DNA of 64,000 nt, taken from Macrocystis pyrifera (lineage: Eukaryota > Sar > Phaeophyceae > Laminariales > Laminariaceae). The position numbers were made by a program, and so were the translations under genes. Where the stretch lies: assembly GCA_031763025.1 (NCBI GenBank), contig JASSKH010000014.1, positions 12,533,201-12,597,200 on the forward strand, written 5' to 3'. The stretch's first letter is position 1. Every line of letters begins with the position of its first letter. The notes under the pieces were generated by a model, which was given only the letters and a program-made list of their open reading frames with translations, was not told where the DNA came from and made no database searches. Below are positions 6,631-36,849 of this stretch, piece after piece.

Positions 6631-6908
6631 TTGATTGTGCTTAGAAACACGACGGAGATGTTCCATCTGACATTGGGGAGTTCCCATATATTTTGATATG
6701 GGATTATAGGAGAAGGATATTTAGACAGATGTTCTGCGGGATAACGGGAGGTGTATTCTCGCAACATCTTGGATACTAACCTGCATACGTTGCATGAGCT
6801 GTCACTCGACAGCTCGGATATAATATACGAGGAGTTCCGTGTTACTGTCTGGAGTCAACCACGCGTTCCCGTGCCAGATGCGTCTATACCTTTCGAGATC
6901 AATCAACA
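6631..6908 (+). repeat. 5' LTR of the copia fossil (shorter than its partner)
   Basis: This segment matches the 3' part of the sequence at about 12.91-13.16 kb, including the shared block gagctgtcactcgacagctc. It ends in ...CA near 6908. The first part of the LTR, present in the 3' copy from 12652, is absent here. Confidence 0.7.
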
Positions 6909-6983
6909 CACTAGTAAACCGGTGATCTTCTGCTGGCAAGGGTAGCCAAGGCCAACCTAGAGAAGTGGGAGCCTGCTTCCGGC

Positions 6984-8223
6984 ATGCATTGTTTCGAAGA
7001 TGTGCCTAGTGAAGAGGCCAGCGTGGCAAGTGATAACACGATAGAACAGATGAGGAACAAGATCGAGGTCCTGGAAAGGACGATGGAGGAGCAGAGGCTG
7101 AGCGCCGAGACGGACGCGCAGCGAGCAGAAACGGAGGAGGGGGGCGGTGGGGGAATGAGACGACAACCACCTGCTAGACAACAAGCAACGTCGACTGTGC
7201 CGAAACCTGGGCTGGGGGCCTATTCAGGCATGTCATTACTTTCTTTATACCAACCAAGTTTAACCCAGTCACGACCCCCGAGGTTTGATAGTATTTAGGC
7301 CCATTTCAGTATGTGGCGTAGTACGTGTTAAGTGTACCTATCATTGGTTGGATGCCTGCATGTACTCAGCAACACAGCGAACCCAGCTATGGTAGACGAT
7401 ATGAGGGTGTCGCCGGAGGAACTAATCTCCAGGCATTCCTCTCAACAGAATAGGGACGCGAGATTTGTATACGGTTAGATGATGGAGTCAATGGCGGGGT
7501 ACGACATGGCTGAATTTCTGATGCAGAAGGTACTGTCTCCGAGTGGTGCTTGGAAAGAGTTGGAGAACTATTATATGCCAAAGACGATAGTTGCAACACA
7601 TAGGTTGAGGAAAGAGTTTGATACCATCCGGATAGCTGAGGACGAGAACCCCTTGCTGTTTCTAGGAAGGGTATGCAAGGCAGCAGATGAGCTGGCAATG
7701 CTGGGATGTGGCAAGAGTGTAGAGGAAGTGAATCGCCACATAGTTACAAACCTCTCGTTATTGAACACTATACAAAGCAAGCGAATGACTTCTCGCCCTT
7801 CCATCCCCCGTTCCGAGATCGATGAGATAATCCGTGATGCGTAAGCCAACGACAAACAAAGTAGAGAGTGAGATGGTGTTTAAGGCGTTGGGCGTGCAGG
7901 GGGTGGTTGATCAGCATGCCTTGTATGCCGGAGGTGCGCAGCCTGCCGGTGGTGGAGGTGCGGGTCCAGGTGGGGGAAAGACGAAGAGGAGAGGCGAGAA
8001 GTTCAAGGATGGGCAGCAGCAGCAGCAGCAACGGCATTATCAGCAGCAGAAGCCCCATCCACAGTATCAGCAGCAGCAGCAGCAGCAGCAGCCACAACAG
8101 CAGCAACAGTATCAGCAGCAGCAGCCCCAGCAGCAGCAGCAGCAGGAGCAGCAGCATCAACGGCAGCAGCAGCAGCCCTGGCAACACCAGCAACAGCAGC
8201 AACATCACCGTCCCCATCAGTAA
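6984..8223 (+). pseudogene. copia Gag-like region (fossil)
   Basis: The region has a coiled-coil-like acidic stretch near 7040-7140. A helical Gag segment at about 7479-7844 resembles copia-type Gag (UBN2-like), with conserved W, L and R positions. A basic, very Gln-rich tail encoded by a CAG/CAA microsatellite closes it. It would have formed the capsid-like shell in the cytoplasm. It is a fossil with several breaks. Confidence 0.6.
8016..8220 (+). repeat. CAG/CAA microsatellite
   Basis: This is about 200 bp of mainly CAG and CAA triplets, interspersed with CCC, CAT and TAT codons, inside the Gag-like region. In the plus frame it encodes a Gln-rich tract with Pro, His and Tyr. Interrupted CAG repeats like this expand by slippage. 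Confidence 0.85.
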
Positions 8224-23926: not shown

Positions 23927-24900
23927 GAATTGGCGGGGGGGGGGGGGCAACAAGAGGAGTGGCGGAAAGCCCGAGCAAGGAAGTGCGGAGAGGGGGGCGA
24001 AGAGGAGGAGTTGAAGGGAAACTGAGGTGAACGAACGTAGGAAGGAGATGACAAGCAGAGTAGGAAGGCACCAGGCCGACCAGGAAGTAGAACATAACTA
24101 TTCTACTCGTGCTACCAACTGGTGCGGCTGGTTCGAACGTGGTCTTACTTTATCTTTTATTCTTTTTGTTTTGTTTTTCGTAGTTGCGCTGATCATCTGT
24201 GATTTTCAGTTCATTTCTTTATCTTCCTTTCTTCGATTGACAAGCCCTATTGAAGGAGCCGTGTGGCGTGGGTTGATGACGAGCCTCTGCTTTGCGTGTT
24301 TCGTACCGTATGAAGCCGAGGGACTGGGCATAGTTGACAACGCAAGACGGGGACGGCAGTCATTGTAGCAAAGAACCATAGGGAGAACATAGCCATACTA
24401 CTCGTACCTCAAACTGCTGTCGGTACCTGCAGGGTGCTTTCTGCTCTGGTTTGCCCGGTTTGCCTGTTTGTTTCCCTTGGTTCCTAGGCTTACTCAGTAG
24501 TACAATTAGTGGTGTTTTGTCTTTCTTCCTTTTTTTCAGGTCGTTCGTTTGAAGGGTCTGCCACTTCCCATGAGGGGCGGGCACGACTGAATGTTCCTTC
24601 CATTTTTTCTTTTTTTCTTTTTTCTTTTTTTCTATTTGTCTTATTTGTTCTGTTTTTTCTGTGTTACGTTCGTTTTTCTATTTCATGAAATATGTATGTC
24701 GTGCCTGTCATATCCAGTACCTGGTTTGACGACAAGGCATTCATTCCATTGTGTGCTGCTGTTGTTGTACTTATGCATATCTAACAACTATCTCTGCGGC
24801 GTAGTTTTATGACGACATACCTTGCATCTCTCCAGGATTGAAGAGTCGGCACGGGCACTGGTTGTGCTGGATGTCGACGGGTGGAAAGAACGCTTCAATC
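23927..24900 (+). mobile_element. LINE-A 3' end, right part of the split copy
   Basis: It continues the copy that starts at 20717. Here it holds the 3' UTR, with G-rich sequence, two similar modules ('gcaccaggccgac' near 24.07 kb and its variant near 24.36-24.41 kb), and T-rich stretches. The conserved terminal block (ggttgtgctggatgtcgacg near 24865) is followed almost directly by a SINE. The terminal (AAC)n tail is missing here, replaced by the SINE head. Confidence 0.75.
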
Positions 24901-24904
24901 CGGC

Positions 24905-25215
24905 GTCGCCGGTGACTCGGTAGGTGGTCCGCGAGCCTATTACAATCAATTTCGTGGGTTCCAGTCTCACCGAGTGCATGCTTGTAGAGACTTTTCCTTG
25001 CACAAAATTGATAAGCGGAAAGCGCGAGAGCGTGAGTTAGCTGTACATTCGATGAACATAGACGAGAAGTGGCAATGCTGGCCTCTATGCGCGACACAGA
25101 ATAAAGGCACGTACGGGGGGGAAAAGGGACGACACCTGTGACCACGGCTTGTCCAAAAGATCGCTGAGGGTAAAACCTTCTACGAGTTAGGGTGGAAAGT
25201 AAACGTGATGATTAA
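24905..25215 (+). mobile_element. tRNA-derived SINE, copy 2
   Basis: This is the only plus-strand copy. The tRNA-like head at 24905-24985 contains cggtgactcggtaggtgg and a B box in gtgggttccagtctcacc. The body and tail follow as in the other copies, ending ...gtgatgattaaaaaaatg. It is the most diverged of the five copies. It abuts the end of a LINE-A 3' terminus. Confidence 0.8.
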
Positions 25216-25850: not shown

Positions 25851-26422
25851 CATGTCAACAGGATGGGGATTGGGTTTGACACAGGTATACGAATGTTAGC
25901 AGCGGGGGTGGCTACTGGAGCAGCCCGGAGGTCTGCCCCTCTCTTAACCCCACCTGCTCCAGGCGGGGGGTGCGCATTAATATTATACAACTTCGAAAGC
26001 AAAATGTAAAAAGTCAGTTTCTCGACTGTCTGGTCCATCCAGTTGAACGAAATAACCGAAAAATCTGGGATCGAAAGGCGCGCTTTATCAACTGCATAAG
26101 AAAGCCCATTTTTGTCTCTGATCGGACACCGGCTTTTTTAATACATACATACATACAAGTTCCCGATTACATAGGAACTGGCCGAGCTACGGACGATTTC
26201 GGTATTGATAGACGGGGGGGGTATATACTATTCGTCGAATACCCTCAATTTTATCCAACTTTTTCTCCTTCCGTGCGTATACTCAATTGAATACGTACTA
26301 CCACCTGTACCAATATACTTCACCTATGTATCTATACGCCCTGCGTCCTCCTCCGCACCTACATTCCATCCCCACGCCATGGGAAGTAGTCCTCCCTCCA
26401 CCTCTCTTCTCCCCCTGGCGGT
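25851..26422. other. No gene seen
   Basis: This is unclassified AT-rich sequence with a short catacatacata run near 26140-26155 and a G-run near 26213-26220. It ends at the 3' side of LINE-C. Confidence 0.45.
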
Positions 26423-29400
26423 CTAGCGGTGCTTATATCGGTGCACACGGTGCGAAATCGCGACCTGGGTGGTCACCGATATGATCTGGAAAAGATGCTC
26501 CTTGCAAACCTCTATTCTTGCTAGAGATCCCCCGTCCGTTCCTCCGATGATGACCGTTGCCAGCTGGTCGATGAAATGGCTGCCTTCCTTCTCGAGGCGT
26601 CCAAAGCTTTCCACCGCGAGGGTGACATGTTTAAGGCTGCGCTCGTCGAAGGACACTTGTCCTGCACGAGCGTAGCGGCTGCGCTTTTGCGCCTCGGAAG
26701 TGGAGGTATCTGATCCGTCTCGATCAGCGCTACCAGCCCGCATGTGTACTCTCGCTGGGGGTCTGCGTGCGTGATGTCGAGGAGTATGGCCTTGTTACGG
26801 TACTCTGACGCGTAGCGTCTCGGACGCCTCCCCTCTCGATCACTATATCCATGCGGAGGTTTATGTCGGCGTTGAAGGGCGCTCCGCTTTCCGTTTGATG
26901 GCGAATGGACAACCGCTTGAAGGTGCGGGACAGCGCGTGAACTAGCGGCTGATGCTGGTTTACCTGCGCGCCTGCTCGGTGGCATGTGCGCGCGTGACGC
27001 GTGGTGGCATCCGTCGCTTCACAGCAGGGGCACCTCGTCGCTATGGGCTCCTCCATTCCCAGGAAGCGCCGTCCCATAGACACGAACTCCGAAGCCGGTA
27101 TGATTCGTGCCGTGTCCACAGGCCTTGCCCTCAAACAGGCGACAGCGCCTGGTCCCGGTAGGCTCCGTTGCCGAGCCTTGGCAAGATCTTGGTTTCGATT
27201 CCCCCGAACACGTCGTTCCGACTCGACGGGCCTGCTGCCTCGGGGAGCTGATCGAGAGACGCAACGTACCGTTGGTACCGTACCCGGTTTACCTGCTGCC
27301 CCAGCTTGTGCTGCGCTTTGTGGGAGCTGATCGTTTGGGCGTCAAGTGCTGGCAATGCCTCCATATCATTATGCTCTGAGACTCCTTCCTCGTTTGCGCA
27401 AAACGCCCGTTCCGCCAGTTTTCCGGGACCACGTTCGCCATTGCCTCCTCCGATACCCCATGGATATCACGGAGGTCCCTGACGCTACTCCAAATGCGGC
27501 GAACGAGGTCCGAATTGGGCAACTCCCTTCGGACGTTTCCCCCCAATAGACCGGAGAGGTCAGCAAGAACCTCTCGCACAGTCGCCACTAAGCTCCCGAT
27601 GGACGCTGACATTCTCCTTAATTTAGCCGATGACATTCCAAACCTCCCGGCCCCTGTGGAGAGGCTCGCCTGCGCTTTCTGGTGGGGCTGTAGCGTCAAC
27701 CGGTTCGCCGGGCATCCGTCCGTAAAGAACGACGATTCGTCCGCTATCCCTGGAAGCTCCAGAAGGCGCTCGAGCATCCATATTGCGCTATTGTCTGCCC
27801 GCTGACACGCGGGTAGTGACAGCTCGGGGTCCATCACACGCTCAATGTAGGAGGTCCGCTTCACCATTGAACTGGTGGCGATGAAGTTCGCCGACTGTTT
27901 GTCCGGCATACCGGCAGGATGCGCACGAGTTGCTCTGCTCCCCCATGTCGGACTATCTCGACGGCGCTGTTCACCGCGAATGCATCAGTGCCTATGGGCA
28001 CGCCAACCACCTTTACCCCACCCCCTTCATCAATGCGGACACCTATGCCCCCGAGAAGTGCTATCTCTTCCGACGTAGGCAGATGCTCTTTTGGAGGCAA
28101 AGCAACAGTCTTGCTGGGGTTAATTGCAACGCCTATTTTGCACAGCTCGTGCTGGAGAAAGGGCACTACTCTCACCTTGTCCGGTGTGATCTCTGATATA
28201 CCGATGCTGATGTCATCGAGGTAAGTAAAGGCTTCAACACCCCGGGGTTCAAACACCTCACGGACGTGTTTGAGTATTGGCAGCAGTGGCATGCAGAACA
28301 GCGCCGGGCCCATGGCATCCCCTTGCTGCACTCCACTGGAGCAGTCAAGTTTACGCCGTTCCCCCGAGTCCATCTGGAAGAACGTAGGGGCTGGCCTCTC
28401 ACCGTAGCATTTAGCAATGAACGGCGTGAGCGCGGGCACGCAAGTGGCCGCCTCGGCAAGTACTGCTGTCCGCTATACAGTATTGAAAGCGTTGGAACAG
28501 TCGGTTAGGATGAGCCAGTTTCTTGCCTCATGGTGCACCAAACTGTCTTGCCTCACGATTAGTCTCTTCCAGCCGTGGCCGCCACTGCCGCATAGTCCCG
28601 GCTGCTAGAAGACGTCTCCATGTCATACCTACACATACGGGGCAACATTTTCCCCCCAAGGCAGTGAGGTTGGACTGCAAGAAGAGCGGCCAGAATTCCG
28701 GCGGGAATGCACCGGGGTCGTCGAAGATCCGCCTCCAAAAGGCCTCGATGCTAGCTCCAAACTTATCGCGACCGAAGCCGGTCCTCATGACCGACTGCAG
28801 GTGTGAGAAGCGTAGACCGTCACTGCCCGCGCCTGATAACGCATTTCGTGAGTTGATGACGTCGAGGGTCACCTGCGAATCGAACTCTTGCTCTGGACGC
28901 CAGTTGGGAACACTCCCTTCCTCCGGTTCCATGGAGCTAGCTGCCACCGCTGCCGCTGCCGACTCGGAGATGGAGGCACGATCTTCCCCGGGAATTTGGC
29001 GTTCACCCGCTCCCATGTCACCTCGTTGCCGGGCGCTCGCGCTTCCGCGAAAAGACAGCATGCTGCTACTGACACCCAGCCCGAGTGGCGACAGGCTGAC
29101 GACGCTCTCTCGTACTTAGCCGCGTCTGTGGCTTCGTAGGTTGGGCCCCTGAGCCGTGTCGATGCTCGGCTGGTGTACTCCATCAACCACGGGAGAATAA
29201 GCGTGATGTCACCACGTTCGACGGACGCGAATCTCTCGCGTCGCTTCACGCTGCTGTCCCGCGAGTGTAGCAGTACCGGCACGATGTACCACAGCTTAAT
29301 GGCCCTCAGGAGCGACCTCGGCGTCCCTGAGTGTCTGTTTGGCAAATGTGCTCCGAGGGCGTGGTTCAGGAGACCGAGCACGTGGGTGAGAAGCTTGGCG

Positions 29401-29426
29401 TGGACAGTAGCTAACCCCGGCTGCAC
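26423..29426 (-). pseudogene. LINE-C ORF2: reverse transcriptase, zinc motif and endonuclease-like tail
   Basis: The N-terminal part (29.43-28.9 kb) has a conserved LWYIVPVLLHSRD...RFASVERGD...LPWLMEYT segment. RT follows: SRNALSGAGSDGLRFSHLQS (about 28.83 kb), SNLTALGG...RPVCVGMTWRRL-like sequence, and motif A TDCSNAFNTV (28477-28506), directly followed by a stop codon at 28473-28475. Then come SSGVQQGDAMGPALF and motif C YLDD (28212-28223). The thumb and connector occupy 27.3-27.9 kb. A CPCC...H...C zinc motif lies at about 27.03-26.98 kb and an endonuclease-like MDIVIERGG...KAILLD region follows. At least five frameshifts separate these frames. The usual length of about 1,000 residues is nearly all present. 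Confidence 0.75.
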
Positions 29427-29752
29427 CTTAACAACCGTGATGAAACGTTGTTGGAGCTGTTCAAGATAAACGCCATCTAGTGGCCCTGCTATTCCTAACG
29501 AATCCTGGTCCCACGGGTAGCAAAGCTCTTCCCTCCGTTCATCCTAGTTGTTGTCCGGCCTTCCTCCAAGTCCTGCGACCGTAACACCTAGTCCCGGATC
29601 AGCCTGAACTGCTGCCTCCAGTTATTCCCGTCTCCCATGGCGAGCTATGCACCCTCGTGCAGCGCAAATGAGTTGTGCGTGTGACCCATTCCTTCGGATA
29701 GCTTCCCCCACATACCGCGCGTGCATAACGTGCTGGTTTCCACACGGCAGCC

Positions 29753-30814
29753 CTACCACTCGGTGCCCCCGAGCGATTGCCGATCGGCATCCCCCGCAAT
29801 CACGCCGTCTTGACTGGCGCCAATGAATGCACGGAGTCGCCCTACGCTCCCCGATGCTGATCCTCCCCCCTCGCTACCTTCTCCTTCCCTGGGGAGTTCT
29901 CTCTCTTCACCACCGCCCCATCTTGAATGAAACTCGCTGCCCCCTCTCGATCCAGGAGCCGAGGGCGACTCGCTGCCTCCTCTCGGTTCAGGGACCGAGG
30001 GCGGCTCACTGCCGCCGGGTCGAGCAATTCTTTCCCGGTTCGTGACGGCCCCTCTCCCAGTGCTTCTCGCTCGTGACCCCCTCCCAGACCCCCGGGGTCG
30101 GCCCCGTCCGCCTCTTGTGCCACCCCCCTCCCTGGCTGCGCTACCAGGTTCAGAGGAAGTATCTCCAGGTGTTGCTGGGTTGGCGCCGGATGGTGTCAGG
30201 GGCACCCCCAAGCGTCCCGATGGCGTGACATCCCTGTCTCTGGATGTTTGAAGGTTTTCCATGGCTACTACAGCAGCATTTCCCTGATCTACCTGCCCCC
30301 TTATCCGCGAGTCGCCCTCCGACGCCAGAGCTTCTCCTCCCAGCGGTGTCGTTTCTGCCGCCGGAGGCAGAGGCCGCGCAGCACTTGGACAGGAACCTCC
30401 AAAGTTTACCCCCATTCTACCTTGGTCGCCCTCGCGCGAGGGCGATGCGCTTCCAGCTGATCTAGGAGAGGTTGCCACCGCAAATGTTGCAGAGGAAGTA
30501 CTGGGCCTTTCCTGAGGGATCTCCACTTGTCCCGCTAGCGCGGCATCCCTACCCCCCTCGGTGTGACGGCTTTCTATGGCACTCCTAGCGGTGCCTCCCT
30601 GCTTCACCTGCCCCTTAGTTTGCGGACCGCGTTCCGCCGTCAGGACCGTTTCCTCCGTTGTGGACACCGCCGCCGTCGGAAAAGGAGGTAAATCGTCCCC
30701 TACCTCCAACGCGTTTTGGGTCCCGGGGGTCCACTCTGCCGTCGGAAGAGGAGGTAGCGCATCACCTTTTCCCGCACGTTTAGTTCCCGCACGTTTAGTA
30801 TCACGAGGGTGCAC
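29753..30814 (-). CDS. LINE-C RGG/Pro/Ser-rich low-complexity region (353-codon open frame)
   Basis: This long open frame contains repeated LPPFPTA-type and QGGTARSAIES-type modules. It ends in an Arg/Gly-rich block (GGRGRPRGSGRGSRARS) and a run of RGGSE(S/P)PS repeats. RGG blocks often bind RNA, and basic RNA-binding sequence is usual in LINE ORF1 proteins, so a nucleic-acid-binding role is plausible but inferred. The frame opens on GTG, not ATG, so its true start is not defined. It probably continued from the upstream module (30961-31527) before decay. Confidence 0.5.
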   Translation of the reverse strand: MHPRDTKRAGTKRAGKGDALPPLPTAEWTPGTQNALEVGDDLPPFPTAAVSTTEETVLTAERGPQTKGQVKQGGTARSAIESRHTEGGRDAALAGQVEIPQERPSTSSATFAVATSPRSAGSASPSREGDQGRMGVNFGGSCPSAARPLPPAAETTPLGGEALASEGDSRIRGQVDQGNAAVVAMENLQTSRDRDVTPSGRLGVPLTPSGANPATPGDTSSEPGSAAREGGGTRGGRGRPRGSGRGSRARSTGRGAVTNRERIARPGGSEPPSVPEPRGGSESPSAPGSRGGSEFHSRWGGGEERELPREGEGSEGGGSASGSVGRLRAFIGASQDGVIAGDADRQSLGGTEW

Positions 30815-30948
30815 CTGGTCAGGGCTGTGCTGGATGTTGTCCGGGGGGTCCCCACTTGTCCCGCTGACGTAGCGTCCCTGTTTCCCGCGGCGTGACGATT
30901 CTCGATGAAATGTCTAGCAGTGCCGCCCTGATCGTTATGCCTCCCTGT
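30199..30948 (-). repeat. Spacer module repeated about every 320 bp (three copies)
   Basis: On the minus strand, blocks at about 30842-30948, 30516-30622 and 30199-30303 share cagg(t/c)...atcaggg-gg(c/a)a(c/a)(t/c)gct and gggacg(c/t)...gcgggacaagtgg-type sequence. They encode variants of QGGTARxxIExxxxxxxRDAxxxGQVxxP. Each is preceded by an LEAGDxLPPFPTA-like motif. A fourth trace lies near 31.75-31.85 kb, linking these spacers to the RING modules. Confidence 0.6.
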
Positions 30949-30960
30949 TAATGGCTCGCT

Positions 30961-31850
30961 CTACAGCGCCTGGCCCGTCCCTCCTTGCGTGTCTGCCACT
31001 GCCGTCGGAAAAGGAGGCACCACGTCACCTGCCTCCAATGCATTTCGTACCCCGAGGGTCCACCTAGTCAAGCGTTCCTCCCATTCGGCGTGGAGGCCTG
31101 CCAGAAACCCCTGGACGTGTGGTGGGATGTAGATCCTCCGGTTTGGGAGTCGGAGCATGATATCCCGTGATCGGATGGCGTGCGCGGCAAAACGCTCACG
31201 GTAGTCGGCGGCAGCCGCTTGCCATTCCCTCGTGCGGGGGAAGTCGAGGTACGCCGCTCGAGGCATGCCCAGGGCATCGCTGAACAGGGAGAACAGCAGG
31301 AACGAAGAGGTTTGGCTCCTTCCATGGGTCCTCACCATGTGCTCGAACGTGGGGTGATGACCAGTCGTCACATAACTGGCTGGTACCAGATGGGTGCCCT
31401 CCTCCTCAAGAAGTTCGGCGAACTGCAGGGCACCTCCTACTGTCGGCCACTTTCCCCCCCCCGGCCGGGGTCTGGGAAGGTCCTCAGTTAAACTGGCGGA
31501 TGGAGAGGTCGGGTTCTTACCGGCCATTCAGAGCCACACTCGACGCATGGCTGCGGGTCTGTGTGTCCACATGCGAGGCGTTCCGCACGATCCAGCATGC
31601 AGCTGGCGTGTACCAACTGTCTGTTGCCATGGTCACAAGTGATGGGTGTCCATAGATGATCGACCTCTGGATTCCTGTCTGAGTTTTGTATGTCCTCACC
31701 GCAATGGATACATGGGCCTGCTAGCGCGGTGTCTCTTGTGGTCTCACGGCTCTCTGTCGAACCTGGCGCGGCGCCTCTCTCTTCAGGCTGCCCCCTTGCT
31801 AACCGGTTGTCCCCCTGCACTGAGTCCGTTCGCTCCGGTGAGGCCGCCAC
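30961..31850 (-). pseudogene. LINE-C RING-like module, second copy, frameshifted
   Basis: The module begins with a RING-like zinc finger (CIHC...TCDHG...LVHASCML...CVECGSEW; C-x2-C, C-x-H, H-x2-C, C-x2-C) at about 31.55-31.73 kb. It continues into a domain of about 150 residues (ALQFAELLEE...VTTGHHPTFEHM...FSLFSDALGMP...YLDFPRTREW...IMLRLPNRRIYI...EWEERLTRW) at 31.05-31.45 kb. A frameshift near 31520 separates the two. It is a tandem duplicate of the module at 31956-32570. I do not recognise the second domain. RING fingers usually bind E2 ubiquitin-conjugating enzymes or act as protein-interaction folds; which applies here is unknown. Confidence 0.65.
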
Positions 31851-31955
31851 CGCCGCCGGGAAAGGAGGCAGCGCGTCACCCGCCTCCAGCGCCCTTTGGA
31901 CACCGAGGGTCTACCTCGTCAATCGTTCCTCCCATTCGGCGCCAAGGCCCGCCAA

Positions 31956-33065
31956 TTACTCTTGGAGATGAGGTCCAATGTAGAGCCTCCGGCTCGGGAG
32001 TCGGAGAAGTATGTCCTGGAGTCGGATGATGTACGCTGCGAACAGCGTCTGATAGTGGGCGGCCGCCGATTTCCATTCCCTCGTGTGGGGGAAATCGAGA
32101 TAAGCCTGTTGCGGTAGATTCAGCGCATCGCTGAAAAGGGAGCACGGCACGAACGAAGAGGTTGGGCTCCTCCCCAGGGCACTCACCACGTGCTCGAACG
32201 TGTTGTGAACCCCGGTCGTCACGTAACTGGCTGACTCCGCACCGAGGTCACCCCGCTCAAGGAGGGCGGCGAACTGCAGGGCACTACTCACCGCCGCCCA
32301 CCTCCCCCCCTGCTTGGACATGGGCAGCCCTCTGGCAAGTTCCGCCGGATGGGGAGGCCTGCCCCCCTCCGGCCACGCAGACAGGCATACTACGCAGGAC
32401 ATCGGGTCGGCATGTCCTCTCGCGATGCGATCTACCCGGTCCAGCATGCAGCGTGCATGCACAAACCCTCCGTGGACGCACGGGATAGGTACTCGCACGT
32501 GGCTTCCCCCCGACTCTCCAGCAGAGTCATCTAGAACCTGGCCGCAATAGGTGCACGATGTTTCGGCGTCATCTCCCCTCCCTCCTTGCGCTTGTTGGCG
32601 GCGGCTGTCGTCCTGGCTTGTGACCTCCTCCATACCCGAATTCACCGATCGCCATAGGATTTCCAACTGACGCTGTTGATAGGCTCCCCGTTCGGAAGCG
32701 CGGTCGTACCTCAGATGGATCCTCGGCAGAATTTCCGCGAGGAGGAACGTTCTCCGACGGGACGGTCCTGTCCCTTCCCGAATGGCCACCCCAAACCGGT
32801 CGTCTCCCCTATTGTCTGCCCCTTCTACGCGTTCAACGGCGCATCTCCTGTGGACGAGCCAACCGGAGAAAGAGAACCTCCCGTCGTCTTCCATAGTCCT
32901 GTCGCAGACTCCACATACCGCATACGGTTGTGGAATCGTGCTACGCCAGTCCCAAGAGAGGTTCTCCTCGTCTCGCGCTGTGGCATTCAGTGTCCAGTCC
33001 ACCCTTTCGGGCACAATATGCGTCCTGCTCCGAAGGCGGTTCTCGGCAACGGTGACCCTATCCAC
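31956..33065 (-). pseudogene. LINE-C zinc-finger region with first RING-like module (370-codon frame)
   Basis: This frame carries a short CGVC...LVHRRC zinc motif (about 32.87-32.92 kb) and then a RING-like finger (CTYC...PCVHGGFVHARCML...CVVCLSAW, 32.38-32.56 kb). The same 150-residue domain as in the downstream copy follows (ALQFAALLER...VTTGVHNTFEHV...FSDALNLP...YLDFPHTREW...LLRLPSRRLYI). A TAA at 31956 ends the frame inside the conserved domain and a TAG replaces a Trp codon of the RLTRW motif about 40 bases on. After that the frame is open again into the next module. This supports one ancestral long protein. Confidence 0.65.
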
Positions 33066-33113
33066 TAAATCGCGTTCGTCCTGTGTGTCCGCCGACCTGT
33101 CAATGGTACGAAT

Positions 33114-33491
33114 CTATTGCAAGAGGGGGTGTAGGTCTACCTCTTTTAGAACTTCGTGTACGGCGGGGTTTGGGCACGTGACTAGCTGTGCCTCGCCGAT
33201 GAATCTCGCTCGAGGGATTGCGTCCTCGCAAAAGCCTAGAGCGCAGCGGCGATGCACGTCGCACGAGCAGGACACCTGTACGCGTTCAGTCTCCTCAACC
33301 AGTCCGTGGCAGATACTACATATCAATCGTTCGCCCCCCTCTCGCCCCCTGTGGTCGTTGTGGATGCCCCCCTTCCCCTCTCGGCCGGCATCGTCTGCCG
33401 CGCGATCGCTAGGGCCTCTGCTATGATCTCGTCGCTGTGCTGACGGGACGCCATCCCGTCGGCTTCTCCAATTGTTACGGTCGCCCGACAC
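33114..33491 (-). CDS. LINE-C zinc-finger segment (CSIC type)
   Basis: The segment contains LICSICHGLVEETERVQVSC followed by CDVHRRCALGFCEDA and TCPNPAV. That is a C-x2-C ... C-x-C-x2-H-x2-C pattern like a RING or RING-variant finger. It overlaps the frame 33323-33913 in another phase, which suggests a frameshift between two fingers of one original protein. It opens on GTG, so no start codon is proposed. Confidence 0.5.
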   Translation of the reverse strand: MSGDRNNWRSRRDGVPSAQRRDHSRGPSDRAADDAGREGKGGIHNDHRGREGGERLICSICHGLVEETERVQVSCSCDVHRRCALGFCEDAIPRARFIGEAQLVTCPNPAVHEVLKEVDLHPLLQ

Positions 33492-33913
33492 GCCGGGCAG
33501 CGCAGGTCGGCCCCTGCCCTAACACCAAGTGCGGCGTAGCACAGTAGATGCAGCCAGTGAGAGCAGTTCACTAGATATACCATCGGGGTCACCAATGCCT
33601 CGTAGCTTACGCAGCAGTCTTCCGAGGTCTCCTGCTGGGGCTGCCCTCTTTCTTCTGGCGTCTGCAATGGTGGCCGTGGTAGAGATGGCGGTGGTTCAGA
33701 CGCCAGCGTGGGCTCCGAACTTCCTCCATCCCGTGTCGATGCGCACGTCGGTTGTAATGAACTTGGTGGTGCCAACTGCGCCATTGTAGCCGCTGACTGT
33801 GTTGACGATTCGAGCGCAAGGATCACGTCCGGCGTCAAAAGTGGTGCGCCTGTCGAGGGACGGGTAGTTGTCGGTAGCCGCCGGGCGGGTGTGGTGGCTA
33901 GGGCAGCCAACAT
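33323..33913 (-). CDS. LINE-C N-terminal region with RING-H2-like finger
   Basis: The frame opens on ATG at 33911-33913. The first 100 residues are Pro/Ser/Thr-rich. The finger is CCVSYEAL...LVNCSHWLHLLCYAALG...LRCPACRA, matching C-x-H-x2-H-x2-C and C-P-x-C of RING-H2 proteins; the second Cys of the first pair is not in its usual place. A Thr/Gly-rich tail follows. It is likely the start of the RING-bearing ORF of LINE-C, or near it. Confidence 0.55.
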   Translation of the reverse strand: MLAALATTPARRLPTTTRPSTGAPLLTPDVILALESSTQSAATMAQLAPPSSLQPTCASTRDGGSSEPTLASEPPPSLPRPPLQTPEERGQPQQETSEDCCVSYEALVTPMVYLVNCSHWLHLLCYAALGVRAGADLRCPACRATVTIGEADGMASRQHSDEIIAEALAIARQTMPAERGRGASTTTTGGERGAND

Positions 33914-34072
33914 TCAATGGACGGGTACTCCAAGCGGAAGGGGGCTCGTCAAAGGAGTCCCCGCACCCGTTGCCGTCGGTGATTGCGTAGTTTCTCGCGC
34001 CCACCGTGCTGAACGGGGTGTATCCGGAGATGGTTCCGGCGACGACGGTGCCGTCTCCAAAAGTGTTATCGA

Positions 34073-34366
34073 TTACGTAAGATGCGTCCTTGTTGGCTGC
34101 TGACGGCAGGATCCGTGGAGCGGCTCGGTGGGAGGTCGGCGTCTTTCTTCCTCCTCCGATGATCGTGCTACGGCACTAGCGGCTGTCCGGGTGCGTGCCC
34201 TTGTCCTGGTGGATATAAGGTCCTCTGTGGATACCCTCCTCATGGCCCGACGCCGTTCGTCTTTTGACATTACCGCCCTTGTGGACGGTCCGACTTGCGC
34301 CACCGCCCTGTTGGGACCTCTTCCAAACGTGGTACCGCTATTGGTACGATGGAGGCCCCCTCTCAC
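34073..34366 (-). CDS. Arg/Ser-rich open frame upstream of LINE-C RING region
   Basis: This 97-codon frame is basic and low in complexity (DERRRAMRRVSTEDLI, TRTRARTRT, SSEEEERRRPP). No domain is recognised. It may be the 5'-most coding part of LINE-C or its 5' UTR read by chance. Confidence 0.25.
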   Translation of the reverse strand: MRGGLHRTNSGTTFGRGPNRAVAQVGPSTRAVMSKDERRRAMRRVSTEDLISTRTRARTRTAASAVARSSEEEERRRPPTEPLHGSCRQQPTRTHLT

Positions 34367-34429
34367 GTATACCCTATCTCTCTCCGTGCTAGGTGCATCG
34401 TCCTCGTGCGGCGTCTCCTCCTGAACAGG

Positions 34430-35576
34430 GGGGGGGGGGCGACCGCTCTTGGGTCTTGAGAGCCCTGTGCCGCCCCCATTGGTAGCGGAGGAGGAAACCC
34501 TACCCTAGTGTGAGCTCCGCCAACGATGAGAGCTGCACCGCACCCCAGCTAGCTCCTCAAAGGTGTGAGTCCGCCCAAGCCTCCCCTCCGGGCAAGGCTC
34601 CCAGTAGCAACACGGACGTCTTGAGACATCGGGTTTAGGTCCCGGAAACCCGGTTCCGCACCCGGCGGTAATGGGGGAGAAGACCTCACCCCACTTCGAG
34701 CGACATCCTCAACGGGAAGTGCACGGTACCCCTGCTGACTCCTTTCGGGCGTGTCCCTCCTTCAAAGCCCCCTCCGGGCTAGGCTTCTCGCTCCACGACG
34801 TGAATCCTGCGACCCAGGGCTCGAGTCCAGAGAGCCCGATGCCGCGTCCTGTGCCATCTGAAACAGAAGGTCTTAACTTGTTGCGGGCACCATTGCTGAC
34901 CCGGGGCGACAAGTACCCCTGTTGGTGCCTCTTCGACGTGGATCTCCTCAAAATCCCCGGCTGGGCGAAGCTCCAAAGTCCGCCGTTTGCCCTCCTGCTC
35001 TCCGTCAGCGTTGGCCCACCTACTCTCACCCCCAAATTAGCTCTCGACGTAGTGCTCTCATTTCCCCCCTGGGGTGCCTCCTCAGGAACGTGTTCAACAT
35101 CCATTTGGTCGCTGGGCCTTTGGCGTTGCTGACCACTCCTTGCTCTCAAACGGGGGAGAACGCAGACCGCTCTTAGGTTCTGAGAGCCCGGTGTCGCCCC
35201 CAGCGTCATCGGGGGAGGAAGTCCTACCCTCGTAGGAGTTGCACCGACGTTAAGGACTGCTCTTCCTCTATTGTGACCCCTCGTAGTTGAGGGCCCTCTC
35301 CGAACAGAACTCCCGGCTGCAATACGAGCGTTGTGAGACCTCGGGTTCAAATCCCGGGTGCCTGGTATCGCACCCGGCGGTAGTGGGATAGAGGACCTTA
35401 TCCAGCTTTGAGCGCCACCTCCCCTATTGTGACCCCTCGTAGTTGTGGGCCCCCTCAGAACAAAGCTTCCCGCTGCAAAGCAAACGTCTTGCAACCTCGT
35501 GTTCAAGTCCCGGGAGCCCGGTATCGCTCTCGGCGGTAGTGTGCTAGGAGGCCTTATCCGACTTTGCGCGCCGCCA
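34430..35576 (+). repeat. Tandem repeats of about 156 bp carrying tRNA B-box-like sequence
   Basis: The clearest units are 35265-35420 and 35421-35576 (shared ttgtgacccctcgtagttg, then a B-box-like gttcaaatccc or gttcaagtccc, then cggcggtagtg). Related, more diverged units occur at about 34620-34700, 34790-34860 and 35150-35240 (cccggcggtaatggggga and similar). A G-run lies at 34427-34438. I cannot fold any unit into a full cloverleaf. The array lies at the 5' side of LINE-C and may be its 5' repeat region, although the B boxes point the other way. Confidence 0.55.
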
Positions 35577-35670
35577 CCAGCGGGAAGTGTACCGTGTGGC
35601 GAGATAGGGACGACGCACCTTCTTTCTCATCCATTGGCGAAGGGGCACTGTTTTATTTTTTAATTTGTTT

Positions 35671-35975
35671 CATTACTTTTACTTTCCAGCCCACTCGTAG
35701 GAGGTTTTACCCTCGATGATATTCTGGAGAAGCCGTGGTCACAGGTGTCGTCCCTTCTCCCCCCCGGTACGTGCCTTTTGTTTGTCGCGCATAGGGTTCA
35801 GCATTGCCACTACTCGTCGATTATCATCGAATGTAGCTAACTCACGCTCTCGCGCTTTCCGCTTGTCATTTTTTTATGCAAGAAAAAGTCCCTACAAGCA
35901 TGCACTTGGTGAGACTTGAACCCACGAAATTGATATTAATATGCACGCGGACCACCTACCAAGCCACCAGGGACG
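35671..35975 (-). mobile_element. tRNA-derived SINE, copy 3
   Basis: This is a full-length minus-strand copy. The tail is at 35671-35690 (acttttactttccag on the plus strand) and the tRNA-like head ends at 35975. It differs from copy 1 by scattered substitutions. The truncated copy 4 lies 15 bp away in the same orientation. Confidence 0.85.
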
Positions 35976-35990
35976 CAGGCCGTAAATTTT

Positions 35991-36227
35991 TCACAGGTGT
36001 CGTCCCTTCTTCTCCCCGGTACGTCCCGTTATTTTCTGTCGCGCATAGGGTTCAGCATTCCCACTGGTCGTCGATTTTCATCGAATGTAGCGTACTCACG
36101 CTCTCGCGCTTTCCGCTAATCAATTTTTTATGCAAGAAAAAGTCCCTACGAGCACACACTCAGTGAGACATGAACCCACGAAATTGATCTTGATAGGCAC
36201 GCGGACCACCTACCAAGCCACCGGGGA
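35991..36227 (-). mobile_element. tRNA-derived SINE, copy 4 (tail-truncated)
   Basis: The head and body are intact but the last 70 bp or so of the tail are missing. The copy begins at tcacaggtgtcgtccc, immediately after copy 3. The head ends at 36227. The arrangement is a head-to-tail dimer with a 15-bp spacer. Confidence 0.8.
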
Positions 36228-36849
36228 CTGTAGGTCCTATTTGCTATGGCCCTTCGAGATAGTGAGATGGGAACACGACTGCTTGTTCGGACCACCCCCA
36301 ACATATTCCAACCACAACAACAACAGCAGTAGTAGTCTGTATAACACTCATGGCGGAATTGTTTTATAGGTACTATTACTAGTATATAAGGGGATCGTCC
36401 CTCGCCCCGACCAAGTTCACGGCCAAGACACCGTCCCCCGTCTCCTTCTTGGGGGAGCATCACAACCTCTCCACCTCTGATCCGGCCAGGGATCCTGGGG
36501 CACCGGCGACAAGCTACCTCCCCTCCAACAGGGGAGTCCATGCGCCTGCACCAGCGATTTCGGTTTACCTCTACCGAGGATACCCGGAGCCAGCAGGTGT
36601 TGGTGCCTCGCAGAGCACCAACCGTCCAGGCCCATCGCCCGCAGCCGTCAGTGACTCCCTCAGAACTAATAGCCAGTGCTAGAGCGTGGAGTACTACAAC
36701 AGATAGGAGGGAGGGCGGTTCTCGATTGATAGCAGGCTCTCAGGTCGGCAACAGCCTCTGTGGACGCCACGGGTCGCCGAACACTGCTCAATGCGTAGGG
36801 GGGGGAACCCCACGACGACAGAGCACCTGCGGCGAAACCGTCAACGGTA

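Follow-up and report, generated by a model that had tools for sequence, protein, structure and literature searches.

The N-termini of single-ORF long interspersed nuclear elements (LINEs; ORF, open reading frame) determine RNA and target binding. LINEs of the restriction-like endonuclease (RLE) type are described in PMC5678591 as having a single ORF with an N-terminal zinc-binding part, a reverse transcriptase (RT), a CCHC knuckle and a C-terminal restriction-like endonuclease; the "ring finger" mentioned there belongs to the RT hand and is no zinc finger. Utopia and NeSL elements, according to PMC4640811, encode one protein with N-terminal zinc fingers, an RT, another zinc finger and an RLE, and one nematode Utopia family as well as nematode NeSL families possess a Ulp1-like protease, which acts in a ubiquitin-like pathway.

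Here we describe a LINE copy on the minus strand of a 64,000-nucleotide stretch of the brown alga Macrocystis pyrifera (contig JASSKH010000014.1, positions 12,533,201 to 12,597,200; hereafter the window), together with its relatives in the genome of this species (537,376,219 bases in 223 contigs). We lean slightly towards the view that this is a single-ORF, R2-group-like LINE in whose N-terminal half RING-type fingers form an array that includes a duplicated finger-plus-domain module, and whose first finger (RING1) functions as an E3 ubiquitin ligase. None of the open-access titles and abstract openings listed reports a LINE with a RING finger (Repbase and subscription papers lay outside this list), and Repbase may hold a described relative. 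IMG/VR scans yielded no relative by the patterns used. Insertion into U2 snRNA genes is a mark of Utopia; nothing in the window, to which the Rfam scan was confined, was matched at the gathering score.

The kelp element parallels R2 in its single ORF, which holds N-terminal fingers and an RT and then a candidate knuckle and an endonuclease-like motif, and among solved structures its RT profile matches R2 best. It differs in that its N-terminus consists of a six-cluster RING-type array and a duplicated domain, where R2 has zinc finger and Myb motifs, and in the length of the ORF, which is about 3000 codons compared with chains of 1121-1390 residues in three R2 proteins. With Utopia and NeSL it shares the single chain with N-terminal fingers, RT, finger and RLE-like end, but its fingers are of RING type, and Pfam profiles of neither Ulp1 protease nor RNase H match its copy L013. 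An APE-type two-ORF LINE is a poor fit to an element with one frame and, in L013, no APE-type endonuclease profile match in Pfam. We refer to it as an RLE-type-like LINE and name no clade, because the endonuclease fold is unconfirmed. Site-specific insertion is usual in RLE-type LINEs; the flanks of the kelp copies compared, only two at each end, differ from each other.

One reading frame in related copies of the element

Twenty 10-kb copies were fetched, 16 from a young family and four from diverged families (70-79% DNA identity to the window); in two comparisons, each between a pair of young copies, the identity was 98.5% and 98.7%. In L013, 3002 codons are open from a Pro/Arg-rich region to the C-terminal end and hold the RING region, the RGG tail, the RT and the CCHC/endonuclease-like end, and in L016 a frame of 2476 codons starts ahead of RING1 and stops close to the end. 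Because L013 reads all parts in one frame, the split into an ORF1 and an ORF2 is a product of decay, and the element encodes one long protein. L013 is itself 5'-truncated, its first codons being flanking sequence, and the copy L022 stays open for about 500 codons further 5' in the same frame.

The window copy is frameshifted, about 94% identical to its young relatives and 5'-truncated relative to the L022 element, which measures about 12.6 kb with its tandem 5' repeats and has an A-rich tail at its 3' end. Its separate ORFs result from its being cut into many frames; the successive frames in which an earlier note on this DNA placed the fingers reflect the decay of this copy, as L013 is open throughout. 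The tandem repeats at the 5' end of the L022 element are about 228 nt long (L029, joined coordinates ~1990-2775), and the reading frame stays open through them in the stretch that precedes L015; they may serve as promoter units or be part of the coding sequence.

An open frame of 3891 codons on the minus strand of C219 (~892.3-903.9 kb) was considered as a longer intact copy and not used. It holds a 5'-truncated element copy which begins only at about residue 1215 of L013, while the frame starts 476 codons before the portion examined, where nothing matches the element protein, and its length requires it to continue for about 5 kb past the usual end of the element.

The RT is matched by PF00078 (RVT_1) with E 6.1e-10 in the window piece, 4.4e-16 in L013 and 1e-14 in the full frame. 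When solved structures are ranked against a profile of the region from the RT to the end (alignment A4, 12 rows), three R2 proteins come first (E 1.7e-4, 2.1e-4 and 0.017); with the single L013 sequence as query, the best R2 match is only at E 0.27. Judged by profile matches to solved structures, and not by phylogeny, the RT is predicted to be nearest to the R2 group. The motif associated with the CCHC knuckle (Table 1) is what we take to be that of a restriction-like endonuclease.

The finger array and the duplicated domain

Ahead of the RT lie six Cys/His clusters. The first is a RING-H2 finger (RING1), the second a degenerate RING and the third a half finger; the RING-like fingers A and B come next, and the sixth cluster directly adjoins the RT. 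All RING-type fingers named in the earlier note exist on the minus strand; the sixth cluster had been missed.

RING1 has the C3H2C3 ligand spacing (C-x2-C-x13-C-x-H-x2-H-x2-C-x13-C-x2-C), with one Cys ligand changed to Ser in the window copy (CCVSY). In L013 it matches Pfam zf-RING_2 with E 6.6e-5, and the best PDB sequence match of the stretch containing it is the RING of AMFR (E 0.0049), the nearest PDB sequences being mostly RING E3 ligases. It thus resembles the RING-H2 E3 ligases AMFR/gp78 and HRD1 in ligand spacing, CPxCR end and best PDB match, and differs from them by its fusion to an RT, a score under the Pfam cut-off and an E3 role that is predicted only. The ligands are kept in four of the five rows that contain RING1 in alignment A3 (33 rows), and V563, L590, P601 and R604 (the Arg after the last Cys), which are presumably E2-contact and linchpin positions, in all five. 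RING1 is also the best-predicted part of the N-terminal model (L013 residues 545-1160), with predicted local distance difference test (pLDDT) values of 72-82 for model residues 31-90, where the model as a whole has a mean of 40.7 and is poor outside RING1.

The ligand columns of finger 2 are mostly conserved in 4-5 rows; its match to zf-RING_2 in the window piece is non-significant (E 0.59), and fingers 2 and 3 of L013 match no RING profile in Pfam. The sixth finger of L013 matches zf-RING_2 with E 0.0042, below the cut-off. When the 33 members of A3 were scanned, two matched zf-RING_2 and at most four matched any single RING-type profile at E<=0.1. Pfam C2H2 or Myb matches are lacking in L013, the fingers being of RING type instead. 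The eight ligands of finger A in L013 (C913, C916, C938, H940, H945, C948, C966 and C969) are each kept in at least 90% of 25-32 rows (finger A/B columns in A3: 25/25, 26/26, 29/30, 29/29, 29/31, 28/31, 31/31 and 31/32), and two non-ligand histidines within the fingers are poorly kept (11/27 and 21/31); over the finger A/B stretch, Cys and His are 89% conserved as compared with 59% for the remaining residues. The L013 protein shows the RING-H2 spacing pattern twice, and 1000 shuffles gave no instance of it; on account of this and of the conserved Cys and His we do not regard the fingers as chance.

Fingers A and B are each followed by a copy of one domain of about 160 residues, and the two modules of L013 share 62.9% protein identity, with a ratio of nonsynonymous to synonymous substitution rates (dN/dS) of 0.25 between them. 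This bears out the earlier note, which had seen the same unrecognised domain behind two fingers and, after these, an RGG-rich tail. The domain has no meaningful match in Pfam or the PDB and none in NCBIfam or PHROGs; a prenyltransferase match (E 0.028 in one search, 0.26-0.27 in another) was taken as chance. Structure prediction, suggested for this domain in the earlier note, failed: AlphaFold gave no usable model of it within the poorly modelled residues 545-1160.

We compared L013 with the diverged copy L027 by our own Nei-Gojobori count, the resulting dN/dS values being rough because synonymous sites are near saturation. They amount to 0.12 for RING1, 0.10 for finger 2, 0.27 for the finger 3 block, 0.24 and 0.22 for A and B, 0.20 for both copies of the duplicated domain and 0.36 for the stretch after RING1. 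The C-terminal half has values of 0.13 (pre-RT), 0.06 (RT), 0.14 (linker from RT to knuckle) and 0.13 (CCHC/RLE). Constraint is weak in two between-finger linkers (0.54 and 0.67) and in the N-terminal region (0.60); near saturation likewise leaves the sixth finger and the C-terminal 102 residues without a value. This pattern shows the multi-RING part to be under protein-level selection.

Table 1. Parts of the LINE copy in the window and their counterparts in the L013 protein
Feature	Window position	Strand	L013 residues	Basis
LINE copy	26230..35651	minus		blastn vs contiguous stretch L029+L022+L032
Pro/Arg-rich N-terminal region, in-frame tandem repeats	34426..35260	minus		tblastn of L013 protein; repeats
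RING1, C3H2C3 RING-H2 spacing, CPxCR end	33488..33616	minus	561-603	Pfam zf-RING_2, PDB match, dN/dS
Finger 2, degenerate RING (C-x2-C ... C-x-C-x2-H-x2-C ... C-x5-H)	33156..33320	minus	659-713	ligand columns, dN/dS
Finger 3, half finger (C-x2-C-x17-H-x2-C)	32841..32915	minus	794-818	alignment
Finger A, eight-ligand RING-like	32385..32555	minus	913-969	ligand conservation
Duplicated domain, first copy, ~160 residues	31854..32339	minus	985-1146	profile searches; dN/dS 0.20
Finger B, second RING-like finger	31536..31712	minus	~1195-1262	alignment, tblastn, dN/dS
Duplicated domain, second copy	30994..31458	minus	~1275-1435	tblastn; dN/dS
RGG-rich tail	29879..30121	minus	~1720-1800	sequence; tblastn of L013 aa 1505-1833
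Sixth Cys/His cluster, directly before RT, frameshifted in window	29600..29798	minus	~1831-1890	Pfam in L013; tblastn
Reverse transcriptase (GVQQGDAMGP, YLDD), broken in window	27912..29040	minus	2240-2415 (RVT_1)	PF00078
CCHC knuckle and restriction-like-endonuclease-like motif (RMDIVI...ILLDIT in L013)	26755..27203	minus	~2755-2900	conserved motif, dN/dS 0.13

Distribution in the genome and competing readings

Protein searches of the genome returned 146 matches at 97 loci for the module (the best 146 of 747 candidates), 107 matches at 103 loci for the RT (best 103 of 1366), 116 matches at 104 loci for RING1 to finger 3 (best 114 of 392) and 141 matches at 136 loci for the sixth finger and pre-RT region (best 138 of 832); all counts of loci below are among the matches listed. 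The region from RING1 to finger 3 lies within 3 kb upstream at 75 of the 97 module loci, the sixth finger and pre-RT region within 5 kb downstream at 67, and the RT within 6 kb downstream at 50, compared with 0.06 expected by random placement. The loci are spread over many contigs, and none with the wrong order was seen. The assignment of the multi-RING part, with its own conserved domain, to the LINE is thus confirmed by the single frame and the collinear loci, and a single host gene is ruled out by the repeated loci. At the DNA level the RING region has at least 41 matches in the genome, the window copy included.

Two groups of copies deserve mention in their own right. Three copies in C201 (10389729-10506390), one of them inverted, are equally similar to the query and each carry a single TAA within RING1's region, which looks like a segmental duplication. 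In C137 (1553042-1556580) two copies face each other about 1 kb apart.

If the element is a single-ORF LINE with a RING-type array, its protein would bind its own RNA via the RGG tail and the CCHC knuckle, and the C-terminal restriction-like endonuclease would nick DNA, with the RNA being copied at the nick by target-primed reverse transcription. RING1, and perhaps the sixth finger too, would recruit a host E2 and so form a ubiquitin ligase in cis with the ribonucleoprotein (RNP), while the two finger-domain modules would provide a structural or targeting scaffold. A ubiquitin-ligase role of RING1 is plausible because it keeps the presumed E2-contact residues, although on this evidence we place actual E3 activity somewhat under even odds. 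That the LINE makes a ubiquitin ligase of its own with which it marks host restriction factors or regulates the RNP, the duplicated module reading the substrate or target, appears rather unlikely. RING-type fingers are usually found in ubiquitin enzymes, and with a row of them fused to its RT the element may have a hold of its own on the host protein-tagging (ubiquitin) system. A selected RING array in a LINE lineage would make a link between retrotransposition and ubiquitin directly testable, in a brown alga; further gains are the duplicated domain, so far uncharacterised, and a LINE protein of unusual length.

Several observations weigh against this interpretation. RING1 of L013 stays under the curated Pfam cut-off (23.5 vs 27.3 bits), it is present in only five rows of A3, which represent few families, and three of its ligands are missing from the broken copy L025. 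No Foldseek match reaches E<=0.001, the first row being the RING of HRD1 at E 0.24. In the zinc-finger profile check proposed earlier, RING1 scores below the cut-off, and A and B match no RING profile in Pfam (L013). At the C-terminal end, the knuckle (C-x2-C-x8-H-x3-C) is one residue shorter than the CX2-3CX7-8HX4C given in PMC5678591, and the endonuclease fold is unconfirmed, with a model of residues 2080-3002 that is poor throughout (mean pLDDT 34.3) and no PDB profile match. As to whether module and RT are always adjacent in the same order, the question put in the earlier note, no wrong order was seen, but among the matches listed 53 of 103 RT loci and 29 of 104 RING1 loci are without the module and 30 of 97 module loci without the pre-RT region. 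The window copy counts as a module without RT because its RT is broken. Three of the 53 module-less RT loci (C193:6891619, C216:839867 and C209:4544790) have a RING1-region match upstream; two further ones were read upstream, of which L055 has no match upstream of about residue 1638 and L056 retains part of the duplicated domain and the sixth finger.

The same element may alternatively use its fingers only as a scaffold for nucleic-acid binding and multimerisation, which is what N-terminal zinc fingers do in R2-like LINEs, with RING spacing and no E3 activity, a possibility to which we give appreciable, though minority, weight. It would agree with the failure of fingers 2, 3, A and B to match a RING profile in L013 and with the RGG tail that follows the fingers. 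It accords less well with RING1, in which all five rows retain the presumed E2-contact residues as well as the Arg that follows the last Cys, and which is constrained as strongly as the endonuclease region. We consider it very improbable that a multi-RING ORF1 is followed by a separate ORF2, as the earlier note had supposed: the window copy does contain several separate ORFs and 18 of the 20 fetched copies are broken somewhere between the RING region and the C-terminal end, but the ORFs of the window are pieces of a single collinear copy and the one frame of L013, together with that of L016, holds both halves, the multi-RING part being the N-terminal half of the long ORF, so that L013 largely refutes the two-ORF arrangement. 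An unrelated host RING gene or other transposon upstream of the LINE by chance, for which nothing speaks beyond the window itself, has a negligible probability and is refuted by the common frame of RING region and RT and by an order that recurs, across many contigs, at between 50 and 75 of the 97 module loci, with no wrong order seen.

Other repeats in the window

The LINE copy is flanked on both sides by related repeats in inverted orientation (35693-36228 and 24900-25187). They contain ggttcaagtctcacc, which we take to be a tRNA-like box B, have no ARAGORN or Rfam match, and are perhaps a short interspersed nuclear element. Another repeat on the minus strand (6631-8024) shares 83.6% identity with the sequence that flanks the L022 element upstream. 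On the plus strand, a 403-aa ORF (1707-2918) has a Pfam ALOG-domain match barely above the cut-off (E 5.8e-6) and a C-terminus (HSFRVGG...GGWK...YY) which we assume to be tyrosine-recombinase-like; it perhaps belongs to a DIRS- or Crypton-like element.

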